Shown here in pieces: positions 4,969-47,409 of a stretch of DNA of 64,000 nt. This DNA is from Trichostrongylus colubriformis (Eukaryota > Nematoda > Chromadorea > Rhabditida > Trichostrongylidae). The DNA lies in the NCBI GenBank assembly GCA_963978905.1, contig OZ022258.1, positions 48,840,591 through 48,904,590 on the forward strand, written 5' to 3'. Positions within the stretch are counted from its first letter, which is position 1, and every line of letters begins with the position of its first letter. A model generated the notes under the pieces. It worked only from the letters and a program-made list of their open reading frames with translations, made no database searches and was not told the DNA's origin. The position numbers were made by a program, and so were the translations under genes.

Positions 4969-4974
4969 TTGAAG

Positions 4975-23437: not shown

Positions 23438-24101
23438 ATGCTCCACCTGGTCCTACTTTTCCTGTGTGAGTTTTCATGAGTCATTTTTTTCCTGATGATT
23501 ACCGAAAAGATGGAAAGTGATAGGTTTTTAACAACCGGATTGTATCTGCAATTAATGCCGTTGTTTCAGCTCTCACCTCTGCCATGGAAATGAGAAACGG
23601 CACCGGCTCGGGTTAGTAAGCTTTTATTAGCACATCTTATACAGTTTTACAATATGAATCAAATCATCGTAATCATTAAAATAAAGATGAATTGATTGTC
23701 GTTCAACGACTGAAAATGGGCAGCGACTTTAACCTCAATATCATGACCATTCATACCCACTGAAAATATTTTAGGAAAATTGTCACCGGCAGGAAAAACC
23801 GACAAGGCAATTTTTTCGAGAATGTTCCAATTAAGTAGCTAGCTAATTTGACTACAGGAAACGGAACCATGACAAATGGAACAACGGCAGCAAGTACTGG
23901 AAACGGTACCACGCCGAGAAGTGGCAACATGACGAACGCAACAATGTCTGGAAGTAGTGGAAACGTCACTACGCCCACTACTGGAAATGGAACGATGTCT
24001 GGGTAAAACACCAATATATTATATAGCAATAATGTGGTGGGTGCTTCTTATCTTGCAGCTCCTGCATGTATCCCCCCCCTGAGCTTATTAAAACTGTTTA
24101 G
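23438..24101 (+). CDS. Gene A: secreted NGT-repeat protein
   Basis: Four exons, 23438-23465, 23570-23611, 23858-24002 and 24059-24101, keep one frame and give 85 residues. Exon 1 is a hydrophobic leader MLHLVLLFLC. Exon 2 gives SLTSAMEMRNGTG, where a signal peptidase site after the Ala is likely. Exon 3 is built on N-G-T, N-A-T and N-V-T triplets separated by Ser/Gly/Thr, so it has many N-glycosylation sequons. Exon 4 is a short tail with one Cys (SCMYPPPELIKTV). Leader size and phase match genes B-F, and MEMRNGTG is shared with gene C. The product is probably secreted and heavily glycosylated; its role is unknown. Acceptors are TTTCAG, CTACAG and TTGCAG. An AATAAA follows at about 24227. Confidence 0.65.
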
Positions 24102-26540
24102 GTGGTCAAGATCTGTCTGCGTTATTCACATCAATGCTCGTCAGTTCTAGAATCTCAAAAGTACCTTCTCCGTAGCTGTGTTGTGCTTGTTTAGCGATGC
24201 AAGCATTGGTATCCCTCTATATGGCTTAATAAACATTGATACTCATTTTATCCATGTAACAGCAGCTTTGAAATAGTGTGCCAGCCGAAGACATCGGACG
24301 GGAGCGATTCTAGCTTACGGTAAACACTTGCAGCTTGTTCATATTACTGCAATTGCACACACTACACTTGACATCGCGCCAAGCGTAATTTGTCATAATG
24401 TGTATTTCACACCAAATATTTTATGAAAATGGAATTTTCTCGCCGTAAAGACATTTTTCATGCCTGCTCTTTCCTTATTTTCCCTTTCATTGCTTCACTT
24501 AATCGTTTCTGTTTGTTATTTCATTGTTTCACATCATCATGAATGAACGAGAATACGTCCTACACGACAACTAATGACGATTTAATTAGTCTGTGGCTTC
24601 TTTCCTACAGCGAGCAACTCAGAAAGGTGATATGTGCAGTTTGCCATGGTGCGCGCTAGATCGCGAATAGAAACCGAAACGTTTTTCTCAATCCGAGCTC
24701 CGCTACGGATTACGCTTCTAACGTTGGATATTCGATTTAGGCCGAAAATTTCTTCCGTTTCCCTTTATCTCCATACCCCTCCCGTTGTCTCTAGTGCCCT
24801 ACTAAGATTACAGTTTTTAGCGTGCCAGAAGAGTTCGCTGTTTCTTCTGGGGGAAAAGTGAGTGATTTTTTACGAAATCCGATTCGATTATCCATTTCCG
24901 AGCTAATAATTACCCATTCGGACCCATGATGGGGGGCAGTGCTGCGGAATCGCGATGAAATCTCAGAGCACTCTTTTTCCTTTATTTTCCTCCACTAATC
25001 TTCTCATCTGGACAAGAACAAAGGACATCTCCTCCCGGTTCTCCTCTTGTTCTTATCGTGAAACGGAAAAACGATGACACATCGATAGCCTGCCAGCGCC
25101 GAGCATATCAATTGGAGGCGGGCATCCTGCGGGCTTGGAGAGTGGAAAGAGCCGGCGGCTCTCCTTGGTAACCGGCGTGACGGCGACCTCAGTGGATCGC
25201 CGCTACTAGATTACGGTAACAGGCGGTATAGAAAGAGGGTGCACGGCAAGTCTGCGTGCCTCTCGCGGACCCACATTAGGGGCAAAGTACTTATAGAAAG
25301 TAAGAAATGGAAACAATAGAAATAAGCTCAAGCAATTTCGTCGTAACAGAATTAACCTTTGTATGTATGTTGTGACCTGCCTTATTGAATGTATGTAAAT
25401 TGTAGTAAAATAAAGCTGTGATAGAATGAAAGTTTAACAGACGAAAGAACCATAATACTAGAAACCTTTGAGACAGTTATGCAGTATCAAAATTTCCTAC
25501 CTCTGGCAGTGCCTTCAAACCACCCCTGGCGGTGGTTTTGAACGCAATTCTGAACGCAAAGGACATTCCGCGATGGTTGCACAAAACCGTCTTCAACCAG
25601 AACACTACTATGGCCACTGCTTGCCAAGTCACTGTAGTCACTATACACAAGGTTTAGCAAAGGTTGAGGAATCCTCGAGAGCGGCTAATGGTAACCATTA
25701 ATAATACAATATTTAAATCATTCTAATATGTAGATGCCTTATTTAATACTGACCAAAAAAAAGTTCAATTTGTGGAGCGGTCAATTCTTAACGACCGACC
25801 GCCGTTTTTAAATGATTTTTAGGTACGGGGGGACGTCTTCTCAATTGATGACCTTTTTCAGTGATACCACTTTACTACAATACTTTACCTTATTGTAATA
25901 CTAGGTCGTTTGAAAATCCTTGCGGTTTCGAATGCTCCACTATAATTGTTTTTTTTTTGGTTCGTATGGATGCTTATACTATACATTGAAGCCCGCTTCC
26001 CGCTCTATTCAAGCAGAGTAACGCTAACCTCAGAATGACTTTCGAATTTTTTAAAGTTACTAGGATAAATGGACTAACGATAGCCCACAACGTGTCTCGT
26101 ACATCCTTCTTGCCACAAACGGACAATAGCTTAACCGCATTGTGACACATGATAAGAAACCGATTCTGTAGAGCAATCAAAAACGATCGACACAATGGTT
26201 GGATAACGGTCAAGCTGCTGTGGCCTTGTCAACATGGTGATGGTGTGGTGATCTGCGCTTGGTCTAGTCCACGATAGAGGTATGGGTATCGGCGAGACTA
26301 TTGCGTCTGGAAAATACTGTGATGAGCTCACGAGATGCATCGCAAACTGCAGATCATGAGCCCAGCTTGAGGTAATGAAAAGGGCCTACCCCTTTCCACG
26401 ATAACGTATCGCTCCTTGTCGCACAAGCAGCCCAAAAAAAAGTTGAATTAGCGGGGCTACAAAACACTGCGACGTCCACCATACTCAAATGACCTACCGA
26501 TCACCAATTCTCTAAGCTTGGGCAGCTTACTTCGGGATAC
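24102..26540. other. Intergenic region, no gene supported
   Basis: A GC-richer block at 25080-25290 stands out from its surroundings but shows no open frame with splice support and no RNA fold I can name. The remaining short frames look random. Confidence 0.3.
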
Positions 26541-26544
26541 ACGC

Positions 26545-26990
26545 TTTAAAGGAACCGGAAGGGGTCCGAAACAAGAGAAAAATACAAAGAAATGAGCATT
26601 TTGTAACGAACGCAGAAGGTTAGAAGCGATAATCGGTGAAAAAACCCGAATTCAAAAGTGCATCGCTGCGGTGTGTATTCGCGCCTCATTCGCACCATCG
26701 CACTGACTTTCCGAGTTGCCCGCTGTAGGAGACGGGTCGCGGGCCAAAGTTAGTTGTAGCACCTGACTCCCAGCACAGTGGAATGCCCCTTCCCGCCTAC
26801 ATTAGCATCCATGTAAGTACATCTAGAAACAATATAAGAAAGAACAACGGAAAAAGTAAAAGGAAAAGACAAATCTGTAATAGAAACATCGTCTCTTGGC
26901 ACACGCCAAGGCGTCAAATCGGCGAGTTTGTGTAATGGCGGCCACTTTAACTCGTCCACACTACGTCTGTTCTACCGTAAGCCAAAATTA
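26545..26990. repeat. Dispersed repeat, family R, copy 1
   Basis: About 440 bp match 44310-44755 in the same orientation. Landmarks are GAAATGAGCATTTTGTAACG, CTGACTTTCCGAGTTG and TACATCTAGAAACAATATAA. On the minus strand both copies start a frame MDE[LF][KR]W.PLHKLA...LSYIVSRCT, but indels break it in at least one copy, so it may be a dead gene fragment spread by a transposon. Confidence 0.6.
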
Positions 26991-27504
26991 CCCCCCTCCG
27001 GTGTCTTTAAAGCCCAACACGATGCTAAAGCGACCTTCAACGAATCATTAAATCTAGATCTATACAGTTCTGGGAAACCAAACTAAGCCAGCTCGTGTGT
27101 TGCTGGCAAAAATCTGTTGGTCCCAATGGTTCTTATCCCGACTTATAAATTTTTACGAGCCGGAAATATTGGCTTTTGAAATTAGAGCTCGAAAGCTGCA
27201 AGGGTCTCCAAACGATTTGACAGCTATTCCGTCATGGGAGGAGGATGGGGTCATATCGCTAAGGGTTAGTTTGGAATAGTATTTCTCTGAATTTCCTCAC
27301 TTCAATGCTTGTCCTCAGCTGCACCCCCTAGACATCTCTTATAAATATCATTTGCAAGCAGAGCTGTGTAGCCCTGGTACCTGCCATTGCTTCAGTTAAG
27401 CTGTTCAATATGTGGAAGAATATAAAGGGAAGAATTTATTGGGCAACATGGACTAACATCGATGACCACACATTTGCATTGCATTTGCAAAAGTCGTCAA
27501 TCAG

Positions 27505-27532
27505 TAGTAGTAGTAGTAATAGTAGTCGTCGT
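27505..27532 (+). repeat. AGT/GTC trinucleotide microsatellite
   Basis: Repeated AGT units run into AATAGTAGTCGTCGTC. Confidence 0.7.
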
Positions 27533-28476
27533 CAGGGTATTGCTGCAGGGTTCTATTACCAGTAAAACCCGTGCCTGAAAAAGAAATCATAGTGCTACCA
27601 GAATTTTGCACTATCAACTGAGTTATAGCGACCTTACTGACTATTGTTTCAATTCCTTACAAAAACTAGCCTGCTGGGTACCGGGGTTTACATGAGGTGT
27701 TTCATTGTCCAAGAAAAAAGCACCACCACCGCTCATATGGTCTGAGGGTCGAATTTTGGACCAGCACAATATCAGTGCAACGAGATTATATTACTCTTGA
27801 GGAGAATGTGTACCATACTTGTTCTGAGAGTGGCGCTCATCGGCAGATTCTATGATTCGGGGTCGAATCACATTGAAATTCCACCAATGGATGAGAACGG
27901 ATGAGTGGAGCATTTCAAAAAAAAATCTACAGCCACCGGTTTTATACCTTCACTGATTGCTATACTCGGTTGTGAAGCCCTACCACAAGAGTGGAAGTTC
28001 GTTTTATGACATGCAGCGTAAAGCGTGGGATGATAGGTGAACCGAAAGCACTGCGATTAGATGGGTTCAGAGACGATTACCGTATCCTATGCATGAAATA
28101 TGGTGTAGCACACGTTAATCACTTTGGTACACAACACATACGGTATCCTAGCTCGCACGCTGCTTGTTGAAGTGCGGATGTGACGCGGGTGAACTGATTC
28201 CAAAATCAAGTCGTCATTATATCCAAACAAAAGGTCATTACTTTGGAGGAAACTCAATCCTGTCCTTTCAGATTCCTCAGTCATGGGCATTGACGGAGTC
28301 TTTATAATAACGTGTCAATGTGGATACTGCAAAGCCTACTTATCCCTGAATCCGTGTCTAGTTAATGTCTGAAACTGATTCATGCAGATATCCCCTTAGG
28401 CTGCGGAACTGAATTTCAATTTGGCCCCATTTTTGACCATCTGGTAATACTTTGAAGTGCAGAGAAAAGATCTCAC

Positions 28477-29743
28477 CAGTTCCATTCCCCCTAGTACCGT
28501 TCGTCGCTGTCCCATTTCCACCGCCTCCAACCATAGTACCATTCGTCATGGTACCGTTTCTTCCACTACCGACCATGGTTCCATTCATGGTCCCGTTTCC
28601 ACTGCCACCGAACATGGTCCCATTCGTCATGGTACCGTTTCTTCCTCCTCCGACCATGGTTCCATTCATGGTCCCGTTTCCACTGCCACCGAACATGGTC
28701 CCATTCGTCATGGTACCGTTTCTTCCTCCTCCAACCATGGTCCCATTCATGGTCCCGTTTCCAGTGCCACCGAACATGGTTCCGTTTGTCATAGTGCCAT
28801 TTCCTGAAAATTCTGTTCACCTGAGAAAAATTTTTTATGCTTCCTTGCACTGGGTCAATGTCGATGTATGTGGGTAATTCCATTGAGTTAATAAATAAGT
28901 GACAATAACGTATAAACAAACAAATAATTTCACTTGAAGTAATTGCTTTGTAGATACATGAAATACGTGTTGAACTTCGCTATTTGCAGGCAGGACACCT
29001 TTAACATTTTTAAGTCAAAGTAACAAAAATAATAGCGCACAAAGGGATAATAACTCAGTCAAAAAATTACCATCAAGAGCTGTATACAGCGCAGGGATGG
29101 AGAATACCTGTGTTGTTATTTTGTAACGTTATTACATACCTGAATGTTCAACAACAATTGAGACTCCAAAATATTTATTCAGAAAACTCAAAAGTCCCTT
29201 CAAAAGTCATGAGAGTTTATCGGAATATTTTTGCGATATTTCGGTGTTTAAAACCTTCTTCAGTCTTGAAAGAGTGGAAGTTAAAATATATGATACTATC
29301 ATAGTATCACATACTATCAGCTAACTATCACAGTTTCAGGCCTGAAGAAGGTGTTAAACACCGAAATAAATTATTACAAAAAACTTTCGAGACTTTTAAG
29401 GGGTCTTATGGGTTTTTTGTATGAATATTTTGAAGTCCCCATTGTTGTTGAACATTCAGATAATCATGAGACTTCGGAACAGCACAATATTAAATCATTA
29501 CATATCGTTTTCTCATTTATATCATGTGCCTACTGACCTGTACCAGTACCGTTTCGCATCTCCAGGGCAATAGTAGCACCTATAAAGTATTGGCATAAAA
29601 AAGGAATCCTATTACTAAAATATGTATGGTAGATGTATCGTTGCATGCTCGAGAAAAAATCATATCAAAATTTTCCAAAATGCTCTAAAAGTATCACGAA
29701 AAAACTTACTAAGAAGGAGGAGCGAAAAGCTTATCGGAAGCAT
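28477..29743 (-). CDS. Gene B: secreted NGT-repeat protein
   Basis: Three minus-strand exons are supported: 29743-29710 (leader MLPISFSLLLL, 34 nt), 29579-29538 (SATIALEMRNGTGTG) and 28803-28477. All junctions are phase 1. The large exon consists of near-identical units of about 24 residues, reading NGTMTNGTMFGG, SGNGTMNGTMVGG and GRNGTM, so it holds about twenty N-x-T sequons. If the last donor (CTG|GTGAGA) is not used, translation runs on to a stop at 28358. A downstream exon was not identified. The tandem units are strongly homogenised at DNA level, which suggests recent unequal exchange. The opposite-strand frame rich in PFPLPPNMVPF is a shadow. The likely role is as a secreted glycoprotein or surface-coat peptide (inference). 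Confidence 0.62.
29145..29465. repeat. Foldback element in gene B intron 2
   Basis: TGAATGTTCAACAACAATTG near 29145 returns as CATTGTTGTTGAACATTCA at about 29440. The inner arms GTGTTTAAAACCTTCTTCAG and CTGAAGAAGGTGTTAAACAC also pair. Confidence 0.6.
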
Positions 29744-31689
29744 TATGTGGATGGTGGATGTGGTTGAAATGATGGGGAACAACGGTTTTATTCTGCTCTA
29801 CAGCCATCATGAATAACAACTTATTCAATTGTTCTTGTTATTTATTTTTGATGCACTGCATAATAGGCTTATTTAGCTGAACAATGTATTCTGTACAGCT
29901 GGTCGAACTTGCATTATTTGCCTGCAGTAGGTGTGAATAAGGTGTGAATGCCAGGAGTTTCATGGAAGATGTAGAAAAAGGCTTTCTCGATTGGAGTGCG
30001 CTATGCACTCCAGCTCTTCTCAAAGTTTCAGGAATACAGAGCTTGGTTTTTCCTGTACCATGACATGCGTGATGAGCCATGTACAATCAATGCTTTTGGC
30101 GTTCAACTCGATTAGTGAAGAGTTCGGTTGAGCTAGAAAACTGGTCTGATTCGAGAATTGATTCCCCTAATCAAGTAAGTGTTAACGACGATATTTGCCA
30201 CAGCACCATCATGGACACTGCGATGGCTTTCACTTCTCGTAATTTATGTATTTGCCCATTTTATTACTGTGAAAACAATTGCTGTAAAGCATATAAAATT
30301 ATATAAAAAACCAGAAATGGAACCGACAAAGCTTTTCGCATGATCACTTCATTACGGAATGCGCCATACACTCTAGTTCCACCCGTAATGGTGGAAATCG
30401 GTGAATGTGACATGGCTTCTACAGGACTTGCAGTACAGAGCAGTGCTTTTGTCCGTGCTTTTATCCTCCCGGACGAGTCTGGCACAAATTCACATGTTAT
30501 CATTCATTGATTAGAATTTGAAGGTTGAGTGATTTGCACGCCCCTCTCAATACACCACCTCTGCGCACCGTAAAATATACAGCAGTAACATCATAAAAAT
30601 CATTACAAAAAGGAAAATATATACTACTTGACTACAAAATGATTTAGAAAATTCGTTTGCACTGTAAACAATGTCCATACACAGGAGTGTGAGTAGTAGC
30701 TTTCAAGTTGCATCACAGATCTCAGTTTGGACCTCGAAGCTATGAGATTACGTAGGCCATTTAGCAGTGAATAAAGACTAATCCACAAGGGTCTTATGTA
30801 TTTACAATAATTGTTTGAAGTAACAGCGGTGCGGGGATTATACGCGATGAGCACATTCACCGTAATCTCGTCCTGAGCGTAAAATAAGCCGTTTTTGTCT
30901 ACTGTGCCCACAGCATGCCCTATTATACGTCAAACATCGTTTCATACCTATCACATAGCGCCATGTGCCCCTGCGAAATCATGTTATCCGACATCCTTTT
31001 AATGAGCAGAATTTTGGAAGACGGCCCTTCTCGAGAGGCAACAAGAAGCCATGCGCGCGACTGCAATGCCTTTCAGAGTCTCAGAGGAGCGGAGCGACTC
31101 GTACTGTCCCTTTGCTGCTGACGGCAAAGTGACATTGCTACACACCAACTTTTTTTTAGCGATTGACGTATAGGTGACTATTGGCCTCCATTCTGCAGGT
31201 ACTGCAGGGGAACTCGACGACAAAGGTTACTGCAGGAGTCTACTGTGGCGGTGGTGGGGCGGCAAGGGTTACTTTGGTTTTTTTGTATCAGTGTAAATTT
31301 GGTAAAATGGCGAATCTGACGACACCTATCAGGATAAAATTGGTGATTTCCAAATCTCACGCTTCTCTACCTGTATCCATGGTTATCGAACACCGAACCA
31401 TTTTATAATATACATATATGCTTAGTATATCATTTATGTTAACATCCAGAGAACTGTTCAAGTTCACTTTCGGATTGGCTTGCTGAACCAAACTTTCACT
31501 TTGTCCAGTGACAACAAGTGACGAAACCATGGACCGGACTTGAGCATACAAATGTTTTTTAACTTTACCACTTCACAACAATATAGTAACAAACAAATGG
31601 ATTGTTTGAATAATTTATTATTCATGAAGTCAGAAAGTAGAATATAAGCATCAGACACAATAGAAACAGACACACCACACCTTTCCACA
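29744..31689. other. Divergent intergenic region between genes B and C
   Basis: No splice-supported gene was found. The stretch 30350-30490 (GTGCTTTTATCCTCCCGGACGAG) resembles 36280-36330 and is a dispersed repeat. Genes B (minus) and C (plus) point away from each other across this interval. Confidence 0.4.
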
Positions 31690-33001
31690 ATGGGCCCCCC
31701 ACAGTTCCTTTTCGTTCTGCTTGGTGAGTTGCTTCACAGCTTAGAGGAACCGTCCACGAGAAAATTAGCACCTTTGTTACCCTTATATTTATGTTGTATT
31801 TGCCTAATAAGGATCGCATGCAAAGTTTCACATGAAAAAGTGAGAATTTCGCTGAGGTACAGCTTCCCAAAAAATTCTTGGTCGGGTAGGCGGGCCCTCC
31901 AAGTAAAAGCCCCTGGTTGAGAACGAAAAGTGGGACTGTTAACGTATGTTTCTCTTCCTACAATGCATCTTCGACCGCGGCGGACTACGGGGTGAGCACT
32001 TGGTTGGAGGTCAGGCCCTGCCCACCCGGCCAAGTGTTTGTGGTGCTGTATCTTAGCGGGATTGACATTTTTCGCGTACATTTTTGCATGCGGTCCACAA
32101 TAGGCAAATGCGACATAATATATGGGTAACATAAAAATTCATTTTTTCCGTGGACAATTCCTTCGAGTAAAGGCTACTGGAAGCTGTTGAACTTTTTCTC
32201 GCATTTTTCAATCTCTTCATTTTAGGTATCACTTTGGCTATGGAAATGAGAAATGGTACAGGTCAGTACCTACATGTTTATTATACTTCACCTCATAAGA
32301 CTAATCGTTCCTGCCATGCCGGCCTCGGATTGGCAAGCACGGAGCGGAACGGTGTTAATTGAGAGGTATTATCAAGTTCTGAAGTGAGATCAACTAGGGA
32401 TTCATGTCGGTGCAAGCCTAATTGTTGTTAATGTATGTGCTGAGTCAAATGGGTTATTGGGCGCTCAGGTGATGACAGGCTCAACAGGGTGATGACAGGT
32501 CCTTCTGGTAGTCATTCTATTACTCCAGAATTCAACTACGAGGAAATTTAACTGTAATGTGATTTTATAAGCTCATATTAACGACAGTTTGGTTACCAGA
32601 AAGCAGGGTACAATAGCAGCTATGGGTAAACAAGATCGATTCTGATAAAAGCATCAGTTAATTTATTATTCACTTTATTTGCAGCAGGCAGCGGAAATGG
32701 AACTATGACGAATGGGACCCGACCAGGAGGTGGTGGAAATGGAACCATGACCAATGGCACTATGTCGGGAGGTAGTGGAAATGGCACCATGCCTGTCAAC
32801 TGTGGAAACGGTACCATGTCGGGATACGGTGGAAATGGAACCATGTCGGGCGGTGGCCGAAATGGTACCATGCAAGGATATGGTGGAAACGGAACCCTGT
32901 GTGGTAATGGAACGATGACGAATGGGACTATGTCAGGAGGTGGCAGGAACGGAACCGTAATGGGAGGAAATATGACAAGCGGTGAGAGAAATTTATTATA
33001 G
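31690..33001 (+). CDS. Gene C: secreted NGT-repeat protein
   Basis: The exons are 31690-31723 (leader MGPPQFLFVLL, 34 nt), 32226-32261 (GITLAMEMRNGT) and 32685-32981, or to the stop at 32999-33001 if read through. All junctions are phase 1. The main exon alternates NGTMTNGT, SGGSGNGTM, GYGGNGTM and GGGRNGTM units, giving about a dozen N-x-T sequons, and it includes two Cys (VNCGNGT, LCGNGT). A tandem CAGCAG acceptor makes a one-residue choice at exon 3. A GTGAGA donor at 32982 may lead to a further exon I could not place. The first intron carries a family V element. Repeats are more diverged than in gene B. Confidence 0.62.
31773..32133. repeat. Inverted-repeat element, family V, in gene C intron 1
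   Basis: The left end TTTGTTACCCTTATATTTAT, then GTTGTATTTGCCTA and GATCGCATGCAAA, pair with the right end TTTGCATGCGGTCC, TAGGCAAATGCGAC and TATGGGTAACATAA. Confidence 0.6.
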
Positions 33002-33071
33002 TTCCTAAAAATCAGAGTTTCTGAGAATCAACAGTATAGTGACACACAAATGGATTGTTTGAATGATTTCT

Positions 33072-33289: not shown

Positions 33290-34600
33290 ATAAATTCTTA
33301 TTCATGAACGACAGCAACTATTATATAAATGCAAAAACCAATTGGAAGGGTGGACAGCCCTCCCAGTTGGTTTTTGAGCTACTCAGTCCTTTTCCTGGGC
33401 CCCTCAATGACAGCGCTATCATGCTGTAGACTGCTGATCGATTCCTTATATAGTAATGGATGGGCGAAATTGGATTCACTACCATTGAAGCTTCCATTCA
33501 AAAAGTTTCCGGAAGCAGTCAAAAAACCTTCATTTCAGGGAACAGAAGTCTCAGACTCGTTGAGGACCAGTATCCATTCCCGTATCCTTATTATTACTAT
33601 TATTATTATTATTAGCGTAAGTTGCTGGATACCACACAATGCCTTGTGTTTTATGAATACTCACGCATGTATGTTCTCTTTGAATAAATCACGGCTCATT
33701 GTTTATCAGGGTTTTCGATCACTCGCCTCATGTTCATGCGCTTTGCGCATGAACATGAGGCGTTCAAATCTCATCTACGACAGGTTTTTCATGCTTTCAT
33801 ATTCCCACAATGGTGAGGTGCTCAATGATTACGCATTTTCTCTAGGGACCGTGGAAGACCCGCTGCTCTTACTAGACGAGGCCCTTCTTCTTCTCCTAGC
33901 GTTAGTCCCGCACCATCACAGGGTCCGCTGTGCTTGTCAGACTTCGCCACTTCCTCCTATAGAAGACATTCTCAGCCGTGGCCTTCATTCCGGTGAGGTC
34001 GCTCTTGAACGTCTCTCCACCTCTTCTATGAGGCTCCACGTGATCACTTTCCTTGTGATTCGAACTCCAGGGCTTTTTCTATGGGGTGGTTCTCTGATCT
34101 CCTCAGCACGTGTCCATACCATCGCGGACGTTGCTCTCTCAACTTCAGCTGGGCAGGAGCCGTCTGTGTTATCGCTCTGACGTCCTCGTTCCTGACTGTC
34201 CAGTCACGTCCAGCCACCTGCCCATCTCAACATCCTTATTTCAGCTGTGTGCAGCTGTCTTTCATGTATTCTAGTTAGGGGCCAGCACTCACTTCCTTAC
34301 AGCATTGCGAATCTCACCACCGCTCGCTACATCTTACCTTTGAGCGTTCTGGAGCACCGCGGTTCGCACAGTATTCCAGAAGACTCTCGCCACTTTATCC
34401 ATGCCGCGTTAATCCGGCCTTCACTGCCTTGTCTACCATACCACTTACCAGACGAGACCACAACGATTAATCCCTTTGCCCCCACCCCTTTCTCATGTCT
34501 AATCTCACCTTTCGAGGCACATCAAAAAAATCTGCCCTATCCCTCCGCCACCTCCTCTATACATTTGTCTTGTATTTGTGCATGACGTGGCAAAAGCGAA
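33290..34600. other. Long open frame region, origin unresolved
   Basis: An 851-base open frame (33329-34180) runs here, but its composition is irregular (IIITIIIIII, LLLLDEALLLLLALV). It crosses a TTA microsatellite and a perfect hairpin and has no motif I recognise. I do not call it a gene. The C-rich half may be an old transposon fragment. Confidence 0.3.
33724..33762. repeat. Perfect 18-bp hairpin
   Basis: CGCCTCATGTTCATGCGC, a three-base TTT loop, then the exact complement GCGCATGAACATGAGGCG. Confidence 0.9.
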
Positions 34601-35701
34601 AATTTCAGGCAAAAATAAATAAAACTCGAGAGACATACCGCTTAAAGCTATCTCCGTCCAAACGGGTTACGTGGGCGGGGCCGCGAATGCTATGAGTCAG
34701 AACGGCTACTGTAACCAGTTTGAGACGCAATATAGGAAGCGGATGCCAAACTATGAGGTGTGTATATCCCCGCTAAGAACACTCGACAATTTGTTTAGAT
34801 GGAATTCGAACAGGTTGTGTTTTTTTCGAATGCCGGGATTTTTATCGGGATAAAAGCTTTGCATTCGATCCCTTTTAACTGTGCATAGAACAGTGGTCTT
34901 AAAATAACAGAGTTTCTATGCACAGCTTCGAGTGTAGTCTTTGTTACATCGAATTTGCTTATAACTCTACGATAAAGAGAGCAGTCCGAGTGAACAAGCT
35001 GAGGTGTGCTGAGGAGCACGGGTTACTAATTCAGGTAACTGTTAGTACAGTGCACTAAAGCATGTAGCACTCATGACAAAGGACGACTCTTCGAAAATTT
35101 GTTGTTTATCCATTGAGCTATCCGGGCTTCTACGGGATCTACGTTTACAGCCTACGCTCACCCATATATCACACTTTATATGTCAAAATGGCTACTGCCC
35201 CTCCACTTTAGTCATTCTTATTACAACCTGATGTTTTATACCAGCCGACACCCTGCTTTTACCGTCGAAAAATCGCTTAGAAATAAATTAGTGAGGCTGG
35301 TAGCGATTCTCGAAAAACCTTCATAATACGGATGATAATACAAAGTCGGGGTCAATGTTGGTTGGGGAGGAGGGAGGGAGAGAGAAAGAGGTTGACCCAG
35401 TCAACTTAACATTTGTGTATTGTGCACTGGTACACCATACACACGCAAAATTTATAACGGCTGGGATAGAAATGGAGCTTCACTATTCCTCTTCTTACGG
35501 CAGTGTCAGAACCCAAATGTGTATAACACAAATTCTTTGCACTTATCGGGGCTGAAAGTTCCAGAAAAAGTCGCATTCATGCAGCGGACACGATTTGATG
35601 ACTCAAACGTTGCCCGTCGAAAAGTAACTGAGTGAAGGGATTATTGGCTGACGCACTTATTCAAAGTAGTCCGTGTTCATGACGTCCGTACGGACAATGA
35701 G
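34601..35701. other. Intergenic region upstream of gene D
   Basis: No gene is supported. The last 120 bases (from about 35590) form the gene D promoter region, a copy of which recurs at 36600-36700. Confidence 0.35.
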
Positions 35702-35738
35702 CATATAAGGCTCCTGATTTCACCCAGGCTTCAGAACA
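35702..35738 (+). promoter_or_regulatory. TATA box and start region of gene D
   Basis: CATATAAGG at 35702-35710 is followed about 28 bases later by TCAGAACACTACA and then ATG at 35744. The same layout precedes genes E and F. Confidence 0.6.
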
Positions 35739-35743
35739 CTACA

Positions 35744-36873
35744 ATGCTTGCCATCTACCTCATGCTCTTCCTCATTGGTGAGTTGTTTGAGAACCCTTTT
35801 AACTTGTTTCCAGTTACTGTAAAATTCGTACAAAATGAATTCATTTCAAAGCCATCATTTTCTAGCTTCCACTGCAGCAAGAACAACTGTAAACAACGAT
35901 GTTGATTCAGGTGGGTGATATATAACAACTTATGATCTTTATTAACTTCAATGGGTTGTTTATAAAATAAATAAGCACCATTCCAGCTGAAACTGATGGA
36001 CCGTCAACAGGTGCAGGTTCAGGCGCAGAGGTCAGTTCGTTTTTCATATCCACTTAATCAGCCCTACTGACTAAGAAATGATTGATAGAAATCCCAAATA
36101 TACTATCTGATCGATTCTGTCAAAGCCCGTTGAAGGAATGAAGGGATAAAGTTTTTGGCATTGAAAAATCTCTCCTGTGAAATGCACCGCGCCTCCTACT
36201 ATAGTTCCATTCAGAACAGTGGCGGCAGTGGGATGCAGTTTTACTTATACAATATTTTGCGGGGCTCAGACGCTGTAAAATTCAGTGCTTTTATCCTCTC
36301 GGACGAGATTGATACCAATTCACTAATCCCGGAGGGATGGAGGGCTTGGCTGTTGGCATCCCGCACCATGAGGAAGGAAGTGTGCTCCATCTGTCACCAC
36401 ACCACCTCCGCCCTCTGGGTAGGTTATATATGTGAGAGTCCGTTTCTATACCTGTTCCTCCCGTGAACCGTGAGAGGTGGGGCTGCTCTTCCTTCCACTG
36501 CGTCACCTCACGGCTTCAGCAAACATGTTGTCGACCCAAGACTAATGCAAAGAAAGTATCGTTCCCGAAATGTGATGTAGAAGACATTACATAAAATTAC
36601 GATTTGATGACTCAAACCTCGCCTGTCGAAAAAACCGCGAGTGAAGGGATTATTGACTGACGCACTTACTCCAATGAATTCATGGTCATGGCATTTGTAG
36701 AAGGATCAAAATTTAAAAGCGCTTGTCAGCGCTTATGAGGATTATTTCAGACTCAAAGTCTATGTTTTTTACAATGTTCATTGCAGAACTTGAATCGCTC
36801 CCCGGAATCACCGGAATCGGCGGAATCGCTGGAAACTCCAGATGAGCGAAGTGGTAAAGCTGTGTTGTTATGA
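35744..36873 (+). CDS. Gene D: short secreted Ser/Pro/Glu-rich peptide
   Basis: Four exons, 35744-35777, 35866-35910, 35987-36030 and 36787-36873, give 69 residues in one frame. Exon 1 (34 nt) encodes MLAIYLMLFLI. Exon 2 encodes ASTAARTTVNNDVDS with a plausible cleavage site after the Ala-Ala. Exon 3 encodes AETDGPSTGAGSGAE. Exon 4 encodes LNRSPESPESAESLE and stops at TGA 36871. Exons 1 and 2 end in phase 1 and exon 3 in phase 0, exactly as in genes E and F. The tail resembles the repeated terminal exons of gene E (LNRSPESPESPE). No known peptide hormone or toxin motif was recognised. An AATAAA lies at about 36977. Confidence 0.65.
36600..36700 (+). repeat. Duplicated gene D promoter segment inside its third intron
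   Basis: GATTTGATGACTCAAAC, GTCGAAAAA, GAGTGAAGGGATTATT and CTGACGCACTTA recur in the same order as at 35590-35660. The copy stops before the TATA box. Confidence 0.6.
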
Positions 36874-38470: not shown

Positions 38471-38589
38471 TATTTTCTTCCATTAATCCTTCAGTTACTC
38501 TTGGTTTGACCTTCAACAGCCTATCCAAAGGTGAGTCCTTACTTCTATCGTATAGTAAAATGTTGAGCACGAGATGAAGCAAAAACAGA

Positions 38590-38595
38590 TTTATT
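38590..38595 (-). terminator. Poly(A) signal after gene E exon copies
   Basis: TTTATT on the plus strand reads AATAAA on the minus strand, about 67 bases past the last copied exon. Confidence 0.5.
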
Positions 38596-38661
38596 ATGGA
38601 AAAGACGATTCACATGGAATAAATATCGAGGATTATTGCCAGGAATCACAATGAACAGCTT

Positions 38662-39519
38662 TTACAAGGTAGGAAGAATAAAAACCCCATCTTTGCCGGT
38701 TTCAGTACTTTCCGGAGATTTTGGCGATTTTGGAGAGCTGTTCAGTGCCTCTAATAAACAAGATCATGAACACATGAACTGCGGTTGTCTAGTGAGTAAA
38801 TCAATGACTTACAGCAGCTCTACGGCTACGGCCGGTTTCTAGACTTTCCGGCGAATCAGGTGATTCTGGCGATTGTGGCGATTCTGGAGAGCGGTTCAGT
38901 GCCTATAATAAGCAAGATAAACAGTTGAATTGCGGTCGTCTAGTCAACCAACGACTCACAGCAGCTCTACGGCCACGGCCGGTTTCTCGACTTTCCGGCG
39001 AATCAGGTGATTCTGGTGATTCTGGCGATTCCGGGGAACGATTCAGTGTCTGTAAACAATATGTAAGATCACATGCTCTTAAAAAACGGCTATTTAATCA
39101 GGAACAAACTGCTCTACGCCGTCGTGGGTTTTCTTGGCTTGCTGCTGAATTTGGAGATTCAAGGGAGCGATCCTAAAAACAACATCACGAGTTCATGAAA
39201 TGTCGCTCATTCCTTTGAACATGTAAATGCTGAAAACTAAGCTCACTTCGGTAGACTGCACACCGGTTTCAACTGTAAATAAAAGATATTTATTCCGAAG
39301 AGTAACTCAGAAGCTGCCCAGGAGTAACTAGAGGTGCTCACCTGAAGCAGGACTGTTCTCTACACTTCTCGCTGTAGTGAGAGCTAAAAAAAGAAGTGTT
39401 TTAGAATGTAAAGGATATTTTCCAGAACTTCTGGGGTGATAAAAGTCGAGTGAGAAGAGCTCTCAAAGACATTCAGGCAACATACCGATGAGGAAGAGCG
39501 CAATGTAGATGGCGAGCAT
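38662..39519 (-). CDS. Gene E: short secreted peptide with four tandem terminal exons
   Basis: On the minus strand, exons 39519-39486 (leader MLAIYIALFLI, 34 nt), 39383-39342 (ALTTARSVENSPAS), 39272-39247 (VETGVQSTE) and 39172-39098 (DRSLESPNSAASQENPRRRR then AVCS) give 58 residues. Exon phases are 1, 1, 0, as in genes D and F. Downstream are three further copies of the last exon: 39049-38903, 38902-38811 and 38748-38662. Each has an AG acceptor, an open frame in phase 0, an LNRSPESPESPE-like, LNRSPESPQSPE-like or LNSSPKSPKSPE core, and its own stop. They look like mutually exclusive alternative 3' exons, or like recent exon duplications. The only AATAAA seen lies after the last copy (38595-38590). 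The Arg-rich ends (NPRRRR, TGRGRRAA, TGRSRRAA) could be processing sites. Confidence 0.65.
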
Positions 39520-39524
39520 TGTAT

Positions 39525-39560
39525 TGTTCTGAGTCAGCGTTTGGCCAACAGGTATATATG
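39525..39560 (-). promoter_or_regulatory. TATA box and start region of gene E
   Basis: CATATATACC on the minus strand is followed about 28 bases later by TCAGAACAATACAATG, almost identical to the gene F start. Confidence 0.6.
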
Positions 39561-39619
39561 AGCGTCAAAACTTGCCTCCATGGATTAACCCGGACAATAC
39601 ATCTGCCCTTTTCCTTGTT

Positions 39620-40830: not shown

Positions 40831-40837
40831 AGAACTC

Positions 40838-41938
40838 CTCTCACTAGGGAAGGTATTTTACTTCCCATGGAACTTTGAAATGAGACCCGGGGGGATCGAT
40901 AGAGCTTTGAACGCTGATTATAACTGTGAAATTCGAAACTGCCAAATGGCATCCTGAAGCGAGTTACGAGGGGTTAAAGTTTGCGTGTGACTTGCCTGTG
41001 ACATCTCAATGGCGAGGCGCTTCGTTATCAGCATGACTAGCGCATAACCAGATATGGCCGCCGTGGTTTGGTGGTAGTGCTCCGGTTCCGTAAACGCGAG
41101 GTCGTAGTCCCGCCGGTGCGGTTATTTTTGCATTTTGTGTTTCATTGTCAGTAAGTGCTTTTGTTTCACTTCTAAACGTTCCCTTGTATGATATTCGCGC
41201 GTAGGGGGTCGAATTACCCTTCTGTGCAAATTTCCAGCCGGATCCAGTTTTTGGTCCAACTTCGGGAAATGAGGGGTGGCCAGGTGTTAAGTAGGAGTTT
41301 TTGAGTTTCCTTCCACAAAAAATCCTGCAAGCTGAACAAGATAACCTAAACATACCTATTACACTTGCCCATCACACTAAACGCCCGTGACAAGCGCCAA
41401 ATAAGAGCATTTGCTGGGGAAGGGTGAACGACTACTCCTTTGTCAAATGGATTGCAGGCCAGCTCATCAATTTTTCCGAAATTTGGTCAAATTCTCGAAT
41501 TAGCTGAAAACTTGTCCCATAGGGTAGTTTGATCCCCTGAACACGAAAATCACAATGGTTTTGCGTGAAAACGTATGGCTGCGCGCTATGGGCTCCCAAA
41601 CATACCATGAAATGGTATTACTCTTTTTTTCAGAAAAACCTTCATAACTTCATTCAGGTAATTGTTTGACAGATTCTGAATACAGATTTGAGATCAGCAT
41701 TTAAAAGCGCGCACAGTGGTATGTGTCTCATTGCAAATGGCCATTTTGACAAACCGTCTGATGGCGAAGTGCCTCGCCAATGAGGTGTCACAGGCAAACT
41801 TTGACCCATCGTAACTCGCTTCAGGATGCCATTTGGCAATTTTGGTTTTCACTGTTATAATCAGCGTTCGAAGCTCTATCGATCCCCCCGGGTCTCATTT
41901 CAAAGTTCCATGGGAAGTAAAATACCTTCCCTAGTCAG
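40838..41938. repeat. Foldback with ~200-bp arms
   Basis: The left arm 40838-41040 (CTAGGGAAGGTATTTTACTT, GAGACCCGGGGGGATCGATA) is repeated as its complement at about 41740-41938. The roughly 700 bp between the arms contain a tRNA-like sequence and no transposase. Confidence 0.7.
41057..41122 (+). pseudogene. tRNA-like sequence (Thr-CGT-like)
   Basis: GCCGCCGTGGTTTGGTGGTA looks like an acceptor strand plus D arm. TTCCGTAAA resembles a CGU anticodon loop. GAGGTCGTAGTCCCGC resembles a B box, and TTATTTTT follows. Stem pairing is imperfect and the B box is off consensus, so it is probably a tRNA-derived repeat head. Confidence 0.35.
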
Positions 41939-42736
41939 AGACGGTAAAATGAAACTCAACAAAAGCCCATATGTTTATACTCTCTTGTTCTCGAGCTATA
42001 AGTGAAGTTATGCCAGGGCGGTTGCCTTGGCACATAAAAATCGCCAATCCAGATTAATTGTTCTAGAATGCGAAGCCCACTAATTAGTCAATACGGATGC
42101 GGTAGTCCGGCGAGGGGCAATAAATCCAACATCTCAATGTCACCTATGTGCTGTGTACTCATTTATCCCAGCCGCTCCGGTCTCGTCTCCACCCCTGCAA
42201 TCTGATTTGCAGATCGGATTCGGTATCTGGTTTCGGATTACGGTATCTGGCCTTCATGAGTTTACCCTTCCTGCACCAGACCTCCAACAAATATAACTAT
42301 ACATCCACAGTCTCAGAGCACGCGCTTCACAACCATTAGCAAGATTATACAAACTCCCATACAACCAATAAGGTATTTCCGACTTTCAAATTTTTAAAAT
42401 TTATGTAACCAAGACCCTTCAACCACTTGTAACTTCCATAATTTTCGGTACAAAAAAACCCAAACCACAAACCCGAATCCATTAAAAACAACAAAAAGGA
42501 CAACATAATCCAAGCCTCTTTCTTTTTCACTAGAGACGTTATTGCTGTAGTGCCCCTCGATTTCCCCGCACAGTCAGTTCTTTGCTGGGGTAGTCGAAAA
42601 TTTTCAGGATATACTGCTCGTTTCCCAGAGCAACTCAAAAATTAAAAATTTGAAAAAGGCGTAGCCTGTGTTGTTCGTACAAAGCGATTCCGAACTTTGC
42701 AAAAATATAATAATAATAATTAAGCAATAATTTTAG

Positions 42737-42967
42737 TTGACCAAATCTACATTTTTTGTTTACCCATCTCAAGATCTTCTTCCACTAGATCCAGAGCACG
42801 CCTCTGGTATCATCACAAGTTTGCTGGATTTTTCGTTTAATTCCACAATATCGTCCGCCAGCAAGAGAGCTTCAGCTCCCACTGCAGCCATGCGTGCGAG
42901 AATCTATCGCAAGAAAGTCCTCACTTCCCAGCGAGAACAGTCAGCTTCGGGCGAAACGAAATTTTAG
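42737..42967 (+). CDS. Possible lone exon
   Basis: An acceptor-like ATTTTAG precedes a 77-codon open frame ending in TAG. It reads as ordinary coding sequence: Ser-rich, with an aromatic-poor C-terminus and a basic RARIYRKKV block. I found no matching upstream exon, donor or family resemblance. It may be the last exon of an unseen gene or chance. Confidence 0.25.
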   Translation: MTKSTFFVYPSQDLLPLDPEHASGIITSLLDFSFNSTISSASKRASAPTAAMRARIYRKKVLTSQREQSASGETKF

Positions 42968-43444
42968 GTGGTTTCAGGGGTTTGTGCTTAGAAAAATTAT
43001 CATTTCTTTTTTTCTTCAATCTATTCAGTAAAGGAAAAAACTCACATATGCTAACGTTACCAGAGGAAACGACTGAGTGTGATCTCACAGAGCTAATCTA
43101 CTCCCCCGTAGCATACACAATTCAATACAATACACGGCCTGTTTGGCTTAGCCATCGAGGCCAATCTAAATGTCCCAATAGGTGCGACATATCCCTACAT
43201 CAATAATCTTCAACCCCACTCAATAGTCACCAAGGTGTACAAAAACTCCACAGAAGGTCCTACGTGGCATAGTCCTAATTAACTCAAGTGATATCAATTA
43301 GCCCAATTCAAATATGCCCCTTCACCCATTTACATAAATTCTCAAAGGTAGAAATTATAATAAACGTTCACAGCATATTACTCATACCATCATAAGGAAA
43401 CAACATATCGCAATCCCATACCATGCGGTATCAATTTCCTTAAT

Positions 43445-43888
43445 CAACATACTACCCTCTCCCTTCGCTTTGGAGAAGCACTGACTTCCTGCTATGCGGG
43501 CAATGCTGTTATAATCCGCAATCCTTTTTTCGAGCACTAAGGGGATGTAATGGTAATGTCACAACGACATAGCTTGAAAACCAGGACATTGGGAGCTGGA
43601 AAATAGAGTGTCGAAGAGCAAGCGAGTCTCCCAATATCAGCCCGTCGACTACCGTGCAGAGCTCGCCAGGGTTGTATGCAATGATGAAACCGAGGATCAC
43701 GGAGAGTCGTCACGTCGCATCACGTTTGTGTATCAGAGGTTGTCCATCATTTGTGCAGAAGGGTTAAGGTTAAAGTCAACGTAAGTTTGAGCCTGACAGT
43801 AGAAACATTCAATCAAAATTCAAATAGTATGATTGATATGTGTTGAAAGTCGGAGAAGAATTCGAATTTCTTGGCATCCTTCTGAGTA
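43445..43888. mobile_element. Non-autonomous transposon, family X, copy 4 (truncated)
   Basis: GCTGTTATAATCCGCAAT, GGTAATGTCACAACGACATA and the end TTTCTTGGCATCCTTCTGAG follow the order seen in copies 2 and 3. The left third is missing. Confidence 0.5.
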
Positions 43889-44309
43889 CAGGAGCGTAAT
43901 GTTCACCCGACATTTCACACTCGGCAGCAAAATTGAAAGTCCTTTAGGTCCATAACTGAGGCGCATTACCTCATAGTAAGTCCATTGACAACACAACAAG
44001 ACAGTGTAGCGATATGAGCTATACTAGATTCATCGCTCTACAGGCGAGAAGAAAGCTCGATGGAGGCTTGATCCTAGATGGAATGAGCCCGTGCATAGGT
44101 GCGGCTCTGGGCCCTTTTGATATCAGAATCTTGCACTGAATTGCTTTTAGGATGGAATCCCGGTCAGTCTTATATCAGCAGATAAGCACTCACCAGTAGT
44201 AAACCAGGTACTTCGCTCGTCTCGAATATGATCTAAAAGATGTGGATCCTATCGGCTTCCATGTTAAAATTCTATCAGATGTTACAACTCGACATTTATG
44301 TTACTTGCA

Positions 44310-44755
44310 TCCAAGCTTATTACGTGTTTGAAGGAACCGGAAGGTCCGAAACAAGAGGAATTTGCAAAGAAATGAGCATTTTGTAACGAATACTCAAGGT
44401 TAGAAGCGATAATAGGCGAAAAATGTGGATTCGAATGCGCGACGCTGTGCTGTGTATAGCATCCAATTCGCATCCACACACTGACTTTCCGAGTTGTCCG
44501 CTGTAGGAGCGGGCCGCGGGCCAACGTTAGTTGTAACACTGACTCCCAGCGCAGTGGAGTGGCCATTCCAACTACTTTAGTATTCATATGAGTACATCTA
44601 GAAACAATATAAGAAAGAACATAGTAAAAGGGAAAAACAAATTTATGATTGAAACATCTCCTTTGGGCACCATGCCAAGGCGCCAAATTGGCGAGTTTGT
44701 GCAATGGCAGCCACCTAAACTCGTCCACACTACGTCAATTCTACCGTAAGCCAAA
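44310..44755. repeat. Dispersed repeat, family R, copy 2
   Basis: This is a same-orientation match to 26545-26990. The minus-strand frame is longer here, running into upstream sequence at 44728-44282. Confidence 0.6.
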
Positions 44756-44759
44756 AATT

Positions 44760-45870
44760 TTGCGCCTATCTTGAGCGCTAATACACAATACTGAGTGCTG
44801 CGAAATTTTTAAAAGTATCCATCAAGTGCTTGATTAAGAGATTACTGCATGGTAGTGATGGAAAGTGCATAGCCATGTCGTAGCTATGTGAAAAGAGTCA
44901 GCGTGTCACGAGTATAAGTCTTGAGTCTACGAATTGATTTATTTGTTATGTGTGTTACTAGAAGGTTTGTATATTCTAGGTCAGACTTATCTTCCTAAAA
45001 ACTTACTTTTTCTCAAGAATCACTACCAACGTACCCAAAATTAAAAAAACTGGTTGAAAAGATGTAAGTGGACCATGTATACCCTAGAACCCTTGTGCGT
45101 AATGATCAAAACTGATTATCTGTGGATTTCAAATCAGTTGATAAAAGGAATTTACTGTGCTGCATCCCACCAGTGGAACGCGTTGCCCCACGCGGCAGAA
45201 AGCGTGCTTACCAGCATTGGACTGTCGGCAACCGTTAACTATACACATAGCTACCTTCATTCCTTCACATTTACCTTTGACATAAGTAGACCAGCTAAGC
45301 AGCCAGGCTCGAAATCAATAGTATGTATATTTCTACGTGTTCTGTGGTGAGCTCACTCACTACCGACCTCATCCCTCACCATCCATTCTAACACTTGCCA
45401 CACACCACACGGAATATGCGATGTGGCACACTGCCACACGATTTCGACCATGTTTCCATCTGCCACTCATAGCTTATGCTATTTCGTAATCAAAAATTCA
45501 TACACTCTTATTTTTGCCTCACTCTGTTAGGCTTTATACGGGATCGCGAAGTCGAAATTATTCCGCTAATATCTGTTTTTGATATTCAATGGTTTCCTAA
45601 CGCCATTGTAACTGAGGAAAGCAGTACGCATAATAAATGTAGAGGATGTCATCATGCCTATCTGGGATGAGTTTGATTTTGGGATCCTGGCTTCGGTTCC
45701 CTTATACCAATCTCTGAAACCCAACTGAATGTGAAGGGCATCAAAATCAAAATTGAAAATTTTGTGATGTTAGTGAATGCAGGAAGTGTGAAAAGATTAA
45801 GCATAGCATGTTGAAAACAAAGGGAGGGCTCAGGTATTATTCGAGCCACTTTATCACTGACGTCGTGGGC
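44760..45870. other. Intergenic region upstream of gene F
   Basis: No gene is supported. The open frame at 45054-45350 has no acceptor or partner exon consistent with it. Confidence 0.3.
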
Positions 45871-45908
45871 CATATAAAACTACTGATCAACACATAGACC
45901 TCAGAACA
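45871..45908 (+). promoter_or_regulatory. TATA box and start region of gene F
   Basis: CATATAAAAC at 45871 is followed by TCAGAACAATACAATG at 45901, leaving a leader of about 13 bases before ATG 45914. Confidence 0.6.
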
Positions 45909-45913
45909 ATACA

Positions 45914-47409
45914 ATGCTCGCCCTCTACCTTATGCTATTACTCGTAGGTGAGTAAGAGCTCTTGGCAGATTTCACTGGTTCTTGTAAACCTAATCGTAAA
46001 ACAATTTTTCGAGAATTATTAAACGACTTCAGTTTCACAGGGTCTTAAAGGCACATTGCAGGACTATCAGGATATCACATCTCCTGCCGTGAATAGATAG
46101 TTTGGCCCAAACCACGTAGGCTGTACCTTTACCAAGGCGTGGGTGTCAGTTCCTGGAGCGTGCAGAGCCAACGAATCTAGCTCGGCCCCGCCCACCCCAG
46201 CCGGGAGTCTGCCTTTCCTCTTCGACTCTTATCTTTGACATCTAGACAGGTAGACCAGCTACTAGCCAAGATCTTGAAATTGGCAGTAAATCAATCGCAT
46301 CGTGAAGAAAACCCACTACTGAGTGACCTGACCCCACACTAGGCACCGGAACACTTGCAGCACACCCCCGGTTGGGATGGGCGGGGCCGAGCTTTTGCGA
46401 CAGATGCTTTGGCTCTGCACGCTCCAGGAACTGACACCCACACCTTGGTAAAGGTACAGCCTACGTGGTTCGGGCCGAACTATCTATTCACGGCAGGAGA
46501 TGTGATATCCTGATAATCCTGCAACGTGCCTTTAATAATGCACTCCATGCACTACTGGCACAATTGCTACTCCATTGCACTACCAAACCTCATTTCACTA
46601 CTTCTCAGCTTCTCGAAACTTTTTCACAAGTCAACATCTTTATAGCAGCTCTCGCATCGTAAGCTGCGGCGAGAATCACCAGATATAACAAATCAAAAGC
46701 CAAAATCGAAAAATCGTTTTGTTTCATTCAAAGCAATTACAGTTTCCTCTGCAGCAAGGTCCGCGACAACCGATTACGATGGCCTCGTCGGTGAGTGAAT
46801 TATCAGCATATCCATCCTTTCAAAGAATTGTTTATGAAGTTCACAATTTCAGATGTTGGTGGGCTGGGTGTCGGCGTAAGTTCAATTACTTCCTTATTAT
46901 GAAGCATCCAAAAAAATAACACAAACAGCAAATATGGAAAAAATCCAATCAGAAGTTGAAAATACGAGTTATTAAAGAAGCTCTCAAGTATACAGTTCAC
47001 CAAATTTTAATTAGAAGTGATTTGAACTATATATAAAATCTGTTTTCGTCTTACAAAATCACTGCATCTTTTGTGCCGGAACTCCTAGCTGAAAAGGCAC
47101 GTGGATTAGAAAATAAGGAGGTCTTTCTCTCGGGGTCTGCCAATATAGCCGTATATCCCAAACTCTCTGGGTTGAAGCTTTTCAAAAGATTCAAGCCGTA
47201 AGTTACAAAAGAGATCCACTCTTCCCAGGGCATGCATGCGAACAGAAGAGAAAAATAACAGTTCGATGTGGGATATTTTATTTCCTTCCTCCTATCCCCA
47301 TACCCATCTCCACAACCCATATTATTATCATTTACAGGTAGATCACGTTGCAGACGTCACGGCAGATCCAATTAGAGTCGGTCGTCGCCGTAGGAATATT
47401 GTTACATGA
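45914..47409 (+). CDS. Gene F: short secreted peptide with basic C-terminus
   Basis: Four exons, 45914-45947 (leader MLALYLMLLLV, 34 nt), 46743-46790 (VSSAARSATTDYDGLV), 46853-46875 (DVGGLGVG) and 47338-47409, give 58 residues. Phases 1, 1, 0 match genes D and E. The last exon encodes VDHVADVTADPIRVGRRRRN and IVT, then TGA. The tetra-arginine next to a Gly is the kind of site cut by proprotein convertases, so a processed peptide is possible (inference). No Cys is present. A TTAA-family element fills much of intron 1. An AATAAA lies at 47491. Confidence 0.65.
46045..46535. mobile_element. TTAA-flanked inverted-repeat element in gene F intron 1
   Basis: The left end TTAAAGGCACATTGCAGGAC and the right end TGCAACGTGCCTTTAA are complements with small differences. 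The arms extend about 160 bases each, including TCCTGGAGCGTGCAGAGCCA. The element is 491 bp, non-coding, and related to 4205-4400. Confidence 0.65.

Follow-up and report, generated by a model that had tools for sequence, protein, structure and literature searches.

Six small genes, here called A to F, lie within a 64,000-nucleotide stretch of DNA from the nematode Trichostrongylus colubriformis (assembly GCA_963978905.1, contig OZ022258.1, positions 48,840,591 to 48,904,590), which was analysed as a whole and is referred to as the window. An earlier note on this DNA had read them as a single cluster of secreted-protein genes with a common leader exon. We placed six gene models by exact match of their exon borders, with a read-out of frame and splice sites, in the region from 23.0 to 48.5 kb of the window (Table 1). 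The six leader exons are real, but the genes fall into two families of three (A to C and D to F) rather than one. The gene structures, the density of N-x-S/T sequons and of S-x-E motifs, and the relatedness of the genes within each family can be read directly from the DNA. On balance, we lean toward regarding them as two tandem gene families of Trichostrongylus whose small secreted products, low in complexity and poor in cysteine, probably serve as scaffolds for modification in the secretory pathway.

Table 1. Exons of the six gene models. Positions are those of the window; TATA-type words are placed relative to the start codon and AATAAA relative to the stop.
Gene	Exon	Positions	Strand	Length	Phase	Content	Signals
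A	1	23438..23465	+	28 nt	1	leader	TATA-type word at -55
A	2	23570..23611	+	42 nt	1	signal-peptide end and MEMRNGTGS	
A	3	23858..24006	+			N-x-T array, stop; 8/8 Asn of mature A in sequons	
B	1	29710..29743	-	34 nt	1	leader	TATA-type word at -49
B	2	29538..29579	-	42 nt	1		
B	3	28477..28803	-		1	N-G-T array on 81-bp tandem repeat	
B	4	27501..27574	-			TGFTGNRTLQQYPDDD and 7 Tyr, stop	AATAAA at 61 nt
C	1	31690..31723	+	34 nt	1	leader	TATA-type word at -47
C	2	32226..32261	+	36 nt	1		
C	3	32685..32981	+		1	N-G-T array	
C	4	33539..33615	+			GNRSLRLVEDQYPFPYP and 8 Tyr, stop	AATAAA at 68 nt
D	1	35744..35777	+	34 nt	1	leader	TATA at -40
D	2	35866..35910	+	45 nt	1		
D	3	35987..36030	+		0		
D	4	36787..36873	+			NLNRSPESPESAESLETPDERSGKAVLL, stop	
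E	1	39486..39519	-	34 nt	1	leader	TATA at -39
E	2	39342..39383	-	42 nt	1		
E	3	39247..39272	-		0		
E	4a	39098..39172	-			possible alternative terminal exon, ends PRRRRAVCS, stop	
E	4b	38960..39049	-		0	Ser-Pro-Glu unit ending RGRRAA	
E	4c	38813..38902	-		0	Ser-Pro-Glu unit ending RSRRAA	
E	4d	38662..38748	-			last unit, stop	AATAAA at 67 nt; acceptor tattagag, least typical of the set
F	1	45914..45947	+	34 nt	1	leader	TATA at -41
F	2	46743..46790	+	48 nt	1		
F	3	46853..46875	+		0		
F	4	47338..47409	+			ends IRVGRRRRNIVT, stop	AATAAA at 82 nt

Several features of the gene models agree between genes. The leader exons have the lengths read earlier (34 nt in B to F, 28 nt in A), as do the second exons (36-48 nt, described as mostly phase 1), and in all six genes both exons end in phase 1. 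The motif x-T-x-A-[RM], proposed for the cleavage region of every gene, is strictly present in four (A LTSAM, C ITLAM, D STAAR, E LTTAR); B reads ATIAL and F SSAAR. All 19 introns, as well as the alternative splice to exon 4a of E, are bounded by GT-AG, and every model exon keeps an open frame. Scanning the window for an ATG with 11 codons at least 70% L/I/V/F/M/A/W/C and a donor after 34 nt, a post hoc search in that this length came from the earlier note, returned four leaders (B, D, E and F; C is not hydrophobic enough to qualify), whereas 60 dinucleotide shuffles yielded 0.22 on average and never more than 2. A TATA-type word stands upstream of each gene, at -39 to -41 in D, E and F and at -47 to -55 in A, B and C, whereas such a word lies between -60 and -35 at 77 of the window's 2429 ATGs (3.2%). 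Past the stop, AATAAA begins at 61-104 nt in B, C, D, E and F, compared with 6.8% of window positions within 110 nt; in gene A, ATTAAA lies at 81 and AATAAA at 222.

When cleavage sites are read by eye, the signal peptides measure 14 (A) or 16 residues and carry T or S at -3 and A at -1, such that a hydrophobic leader, small residues at -3/-1 and a phase-1 intron near the cleavage site come together in 6/6 genes. The description of these products as small secreted proteins is supported by the leaders, by the short low-complexity cargo and by the lack of any Pfam family at cut-off among the proteins scanned, namely those of C, D, E and F, secretion itself being predicted. Cysteine is nearly absent (none in A, B, D, F or the long form of E, two in C, one in the form of E ending in exon 4a, hereafter E4a), with no even conserved set in the six genes, and a cysteine-stabilised effector or antimicrobial peptide is therefore disfavoured.

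The first family is held together by what follows its leader. Exon 2 of A, B and C comprises the signal-peptide end and EMRNGT, and over these six codons each of the three pairs shows 3-4 synonymous and 0 non-synonymous codon differences. Exon 4 of B and C, absent from the earlier note, reads GNR[TS]L ... QYP ... poly-Tyr (7 or 8), is joined by a phase-1 splice, and encodes its Tyr run by differing TAC/TAT mixtures; gene A terminates in exon 3, and a Tyr exon was looked for there with none found. The tails of the six genes had been thought to diverge completely, but A, B and C have one cargo in common, and D and E another. Nor does the idea of conserved delivery with diversified cargo hold for the cluster as a whole, as in A to C it is exon 2 and the cargo that are kept and the leader that is least conserved (A/B 13/28, A/C 15/28 and B/C 16/34 bases, where the average for random leaders drawn from that codon pool is 16.35/34). 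Before modification, the mature proteins would have masses of 5.5 (A), 14.2 (B) and 13.3 kDa (C). B and C are divergent neighbours, and upstream of each lies a palindrome, TGAATAA-N4-TTATTCA (29810-29827 and 31607-31624); with spacers of 3-8 these are the only two such sites in the window, and they may represent a shared control site. The last intron of C holds a partial copy of the gene's own upstream DNA (33029-33069 vs 31576-31616, 90% over 41 bp).

N-G-T is a canonical N-glycosylation sequon, and the mature proteins of the first family are dense in such sites. In A to C, 42 of 43 Asn fall within N-x-S/T (19/19 in B, 15/16 in C) and 41 of the 42 sequons carry Thr, whereas 2000 residue shuffles gave means of 2.9, 4.1 and 2.9 sequons for A, B and C, with maxima of 8, 10 and 8. 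The three proteins thus combine a signal peptide with a sequon density above composition, as would be expected of an N-glycan scaffold. The middle residue x is G in 36 sequons, M in 2, R in 2, A in 1 and V in 1. An in-frame scan of exon 3 for NGT, tolerating two mismatches, collected 48 units: 33 exact NGT, the single-mismatch NAT and NVT, two copies of the double-mismatch NMT, and 11 spacer words (SGN, TGN, GGT, SGR); nine of these words overlap a sequon via their final Asn, and the other two, GGT and SGR in B, are read as spacers. Both units one base off N-G-T (NAT, NVT) change at x, no unit was seen to have lost N or T through one base change, and third codon positions vary, a pattern suggestive of selection on the N-x-T sequon rather than on the N-G-T word. 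Retention of N-G for its own sake (e.g., for deamidation) is disfavoured, as x shifts to M, A, V and R while T (once S) persists.

Mucin-like proteins are heavily glycosylated secreted or surface proteins with Ser/Thr/Pro-rich repeats that carry O-glycans. The products of A to C resemble them as short, secreted, low-complexity repeats whose role would probably be glycan carriage, but differ in their acceptor, which is N-x-T (N-linked), in their Gly/Met spacers and in the Tyr tail of B and C. The Pro/Thr/Ser-rich tandem repeats of the classical O-glycan mucin are not seen in the arrays of B and C, which are mainly Gly, Asn, Thr and Met with few Pro or Ser; gene A has more Thr, Ser and Pro, which makes the contrast less clear there.

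In the second family, it is the leader that is conserved. D, E and F share 26-28 of 34 leader bases, random pairs reaching 26 in 0.05% of cases, and all three have intron phases 1-1-0. The alignment of D with F runs from the TATA box into intron 1 (78% over 83 bp), and those of D with E (84% over 55 bp) and of E with F (84% over 50 bp) begin immediately 5' of the start codon; a TATA box at -42 to -38, where all three genes have theirs, is found at 12 of the 2429 window ATGs, and TCAGAACAATACAATG stands at the start codon of E and F and, with a single difference, of D. The terminal exons of D and E consist of Ser-Pro-Glu units. In E, three such exons (4b-4d) lie 3' of 4a on a 147-bp tandem repeat, with frames and splice sites that fit the skipping of 4a, and 4a and 4b-4c-4d may be used alternatively. 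None of AATAAA, ATTAAA, AATGAA or TATAAA occurs within 400 nt of the stop of 4a; because 4d, not 4a, has a poly(A)-type word nearby, the long form of E is better supported. Between exons 4b and 4c there are 5 synonymous and 4 non-synonymous codon changes. Fast evolution of the tails of D to F is plausible. The last intron of D contains a partial copy of its own upstream DNA (36599-36690 vs 35590-35681, 82% over 94 columns), and intron 1 of F an inverted repeat (46045-46535, 89%, arms of ~170 bp) like a short inverted-repeat element.

The cargo of this family is marked by two other motifs. Ser lies within S-x-E in 5 of 8 cases in D (shuffled mean 1.05), 14 of 22 in E (2.85) and 5 of 9 in E4a (1.01); three of the S-x-E of E sit outside the repeats, in exons 2-3, and are common to E4a. 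According to the available part of a published account (PMC7948968), FAMK-1 is the Fam20 of Caenorhabditis elegans and prefers S-x-E. Predicted secretion together with clustered S-x-E, as in a Fam20/FAMK-1 substrate, is found in D, E and E4a, whereas F has S-x-E at 0/1 Ser. Substrates of Fam20C/FAMK-1 such as casein (PMC7948968, same part) are similar to D and E in their dense S-x-E within secreted low-complexity sequence; E differs in its short runs of Ser-Pro-Glu triplets and in the furin-type sites between its units, and the action of such a kinase on D and E is predicted. R-x-R-R occurs in exons 4a, 4b and 4c of E and in F, and the change from RGRR (4b) to RSRR (4c) preserves it. Such candidate basic cleavage sites lie between repeated units in E (4b, 4c) and are present once each in 4a and F, with none in D.

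The following course of events would connect these features, provided that the genes are expressed. A, B and C would enter the endoplasmic reticulum via a signal peptide of 14-16 residues, and secretion is the step that we would predict with most confidence. Next in confidence, the cargo of A to C, with its 8-19 N-x-S/T sequons, would be loaded with N-glycans by oligosaccharyltransferase to give a compact glycan-display protein. D, E and F, from a separate conserved TATA/leader cassette, would be made as short secreted peptides, and the dense S-x-E sites of D and E may be phosphorylated by a Fam20-type secretory kinase. With decreasing confidence, furin-like proteases may cut E and F at R-x-R-R, the Tyr tails of B (DDD and 7 Tyr) and C (YPFPYP and 8 Tyr) might be cross-linked or sulfated, and a host-facing or matrix role might be served. 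These proteins may be disordered, a judgement made from low complexity alone. It is conceivable, albeit improbable, that both families converged on peptides selected as dense arrays of enzyme sites (N-x-T in A to C, S-x-E in D and E, R-x-R-R in E and F, the Tyr tail in B and C) and not for a fold, their activity residing in glycans and phosphates and not in a polypeptide surface.

A number of points weigh against reading the two families as modification scaffolds. The control rates for the TATA-type word and AATAAA were computed after the patterns had been seen. For A to C, the pattern of a free x depends on six units with a non-Gly residue, shuffling alone produced the 8 sequons of A at least once in 2000, and the sequons are spaced 3-5 residues apart, so that perhaps not every one is usable; the poly-Tyr of B and C could be a drifting microsatellite. 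For the second family, 25 hand-picked Ser-Pro-Glu units keep S in 24, the middle P in 17 and the +2 E in 17; since P and E each depart in 8 of 25, these units do not support a conservation of S-x-E beyond that of the residue in its middle. D is without R-x-R-R and F without S-x-E. R-x-[RK]-R turns up one or more times in 7-8% of residue shuffles of E, E4a and F, and a single R-x-R-R site is for this reason not strong evidence.

The last of these points bears equally on the foremost alternative, which we consider possible though rather unlikely, namely that D, E and F encode precursors of signalling-type peptides, with furin or a prohormone convertase acting at R-x-R-R to free acidic repeats (E) or a possibly amidated peptide with the end IRV-G-RRRR (F). 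In keeping with this, R-x-R-R closes the units in 4a, 4b, 4c and F, and exon duplication in E multiplies units together with their sites. However, besides the 7-8% of shuffles that yield a site, D is without one, 4d has lost its own, and E is the only gene with repeats.

More doubtful is the derivation of all six genes from one ancestral secreted gene, its leader and exon 2 being kept while cargo exons were replaced by exon shuffling. B to F do share one geometry (codon 12 split, cleavage read after residue 16, a second phase-1 intron), and exon 2 similarity between the families lies above two permutation nulls (p 0.0004 with genes treated as independent, p 0.007 with the relatedness of D to F kept). 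In addition, the copies of each gene's upstream DNA in the last introns of C and D are what unequal duplication would be expected to leave behind, and they hint that the last exons were joined by unequal tandem duplication. Yet exon 2 identity between the families is 52% over the signal-peptide end and drops to 38% over the mature part, a likeness that shared function can explain in the former; leader likeness between them reaches at most 21/34, matched by 7% of random leader pairs and so not beyond chance; and the third intron is phase 1 in B and C vs 0 in D to F. Moreover, phase-1 introns are over-represented at signal-peptide ends in vertebrates and arthropods (PMC1626468, in the available part of which nematodes go unmentioned), and because this excess is general in those groups, shared phase 1 alone is a weak sign of common descent. 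On present sequence, A to C and D to F are best treated as separate families unless relatives show otherwise.

Equally doubtful is an assignment to cross-linked extracellular matrix or surface components (cuticle, eggshell or seminal material), in which Tyr tails would form dityrosine and glycans would hydrate the layer. Seven and eight terminal Tyr in two genes, with different TAC/TAT mixtures, are what this would lead one to expect, as are the absence of Lys from A to C and the restriction of Cys to C (2), but A is without a Tyr exon and the papers listed by a literature search on the subject name no such family. Finally, neutral drift of repeat-bearing orphan reading frames or decaying copies, partly mis-assembled repeats, is very unlikely: C and E have no homologue at E 1e-3, tandem repeats are unstable and A is without the last exon of B and C, but promoter, splice and poly(A) signals recur from gene to gene more often than window rates would give, EMRNGT changes are synonymous only, every model exon is open and nearly all Asn remain in sequons.

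Searches for relatives of the two families returned little. A protein search with C (4006 candidates) and E (234 candidates) as its queries from the six genes gave no match at E 1e-3, which is weak evidence of absence in that low-complexity queries are perhaps scored harshly and candidates were limited by length. A control query, the open reading frame at 4861-5145, found strongylid proteins in the same collection. As to small secreted families of C. elegans such as nsp, cnc and nlp, the searches with C and E likewise produced nothing at E 1e-3, and no search started from sequences of those families. The Pfam scan of C, D, E and F yielded none at cut-off, the one entry listed being PFF1_TM for E (E-value 0.12). 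A tblastn of the window, queried with A, B, C, D, E, E4a and F, produced 100 matches at E <=1, five of them outside the six loci (E 0.44-0.92) and none a convincing gene. A literature search by exact peptide (five strings) found no match, and nothing resembling this gene family was among the matches listed in a search by topic.

The control frame at 4861-5145 is an exon of a UQCRH (cytochrome bc1 hinge) gene (Pfam PF02320, E 9.9e-9), with four protein matches. The best, under a name read as T. colubriformis, has 98% identity and covers 55% of the query; those from Haemonchus, Teladorsagia and Cooperia follow at 75-81%. Taken by itself, this one gene would place the window in Trichostrongylus or its close kin, most likely in T. 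colubriformis or possibly in a sister species. On the reverse strand at 1277-1816 lies an open frame of 180 codons without a Pfam match at E 1e-3, which by eye we take to resemble a mariner transposase. Copies of a dispersed repeat are found at 26545-26987 and 44327-44756 (82% identity over 444 columns). A tandem array of tRNA genes, 36 units of ~161 bp at 48122-53915, starts 0.7 kb past gene F; 35 units are called tRNA-Gly(TCC) and the last tRNA-Glu(TTC), there are 12 distinct bodies with 19 of 36 identical, and across the first 30 units bodies are 99.0% and spacers 91.1% alike.

Two described products of T. colubriformis invite comparison. CarLA, a 35-kDa larval surface antigen, is a carbohydrate surface antigen of this, the probable source species, and the available parts of the relevant papers describe it as glycolipid in nature and without a protein component (PMC2742895, PMC5006967); A to C were accordingly rejected as its carrier. 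The second, a 30-kDa product (Savin et al., 1990, as described in PMC4867787), is similar in being a secreted glycoprotein of the same worm, but has a named homologue, TDP00713, in the part available of a T. circumcincta vesicle study (PMC4867787), whereas C found no relative in the protein search. If expressed and glycosylated, A to C would be N-glycan carriers of unusual purity, from a parasite of sheep. Host antibodies are reported, in the same parts of the CarLA papers, to target this surface carbohydrate (PMC2742895, PMC5006967), and defined protein carriers of worm glycans would for that reason serve as useful handles. In addition, a sequon that is under constraint while its middle residue is free would offer a simple genomic signature for such scaffolds, which homology searches with C and E missed.

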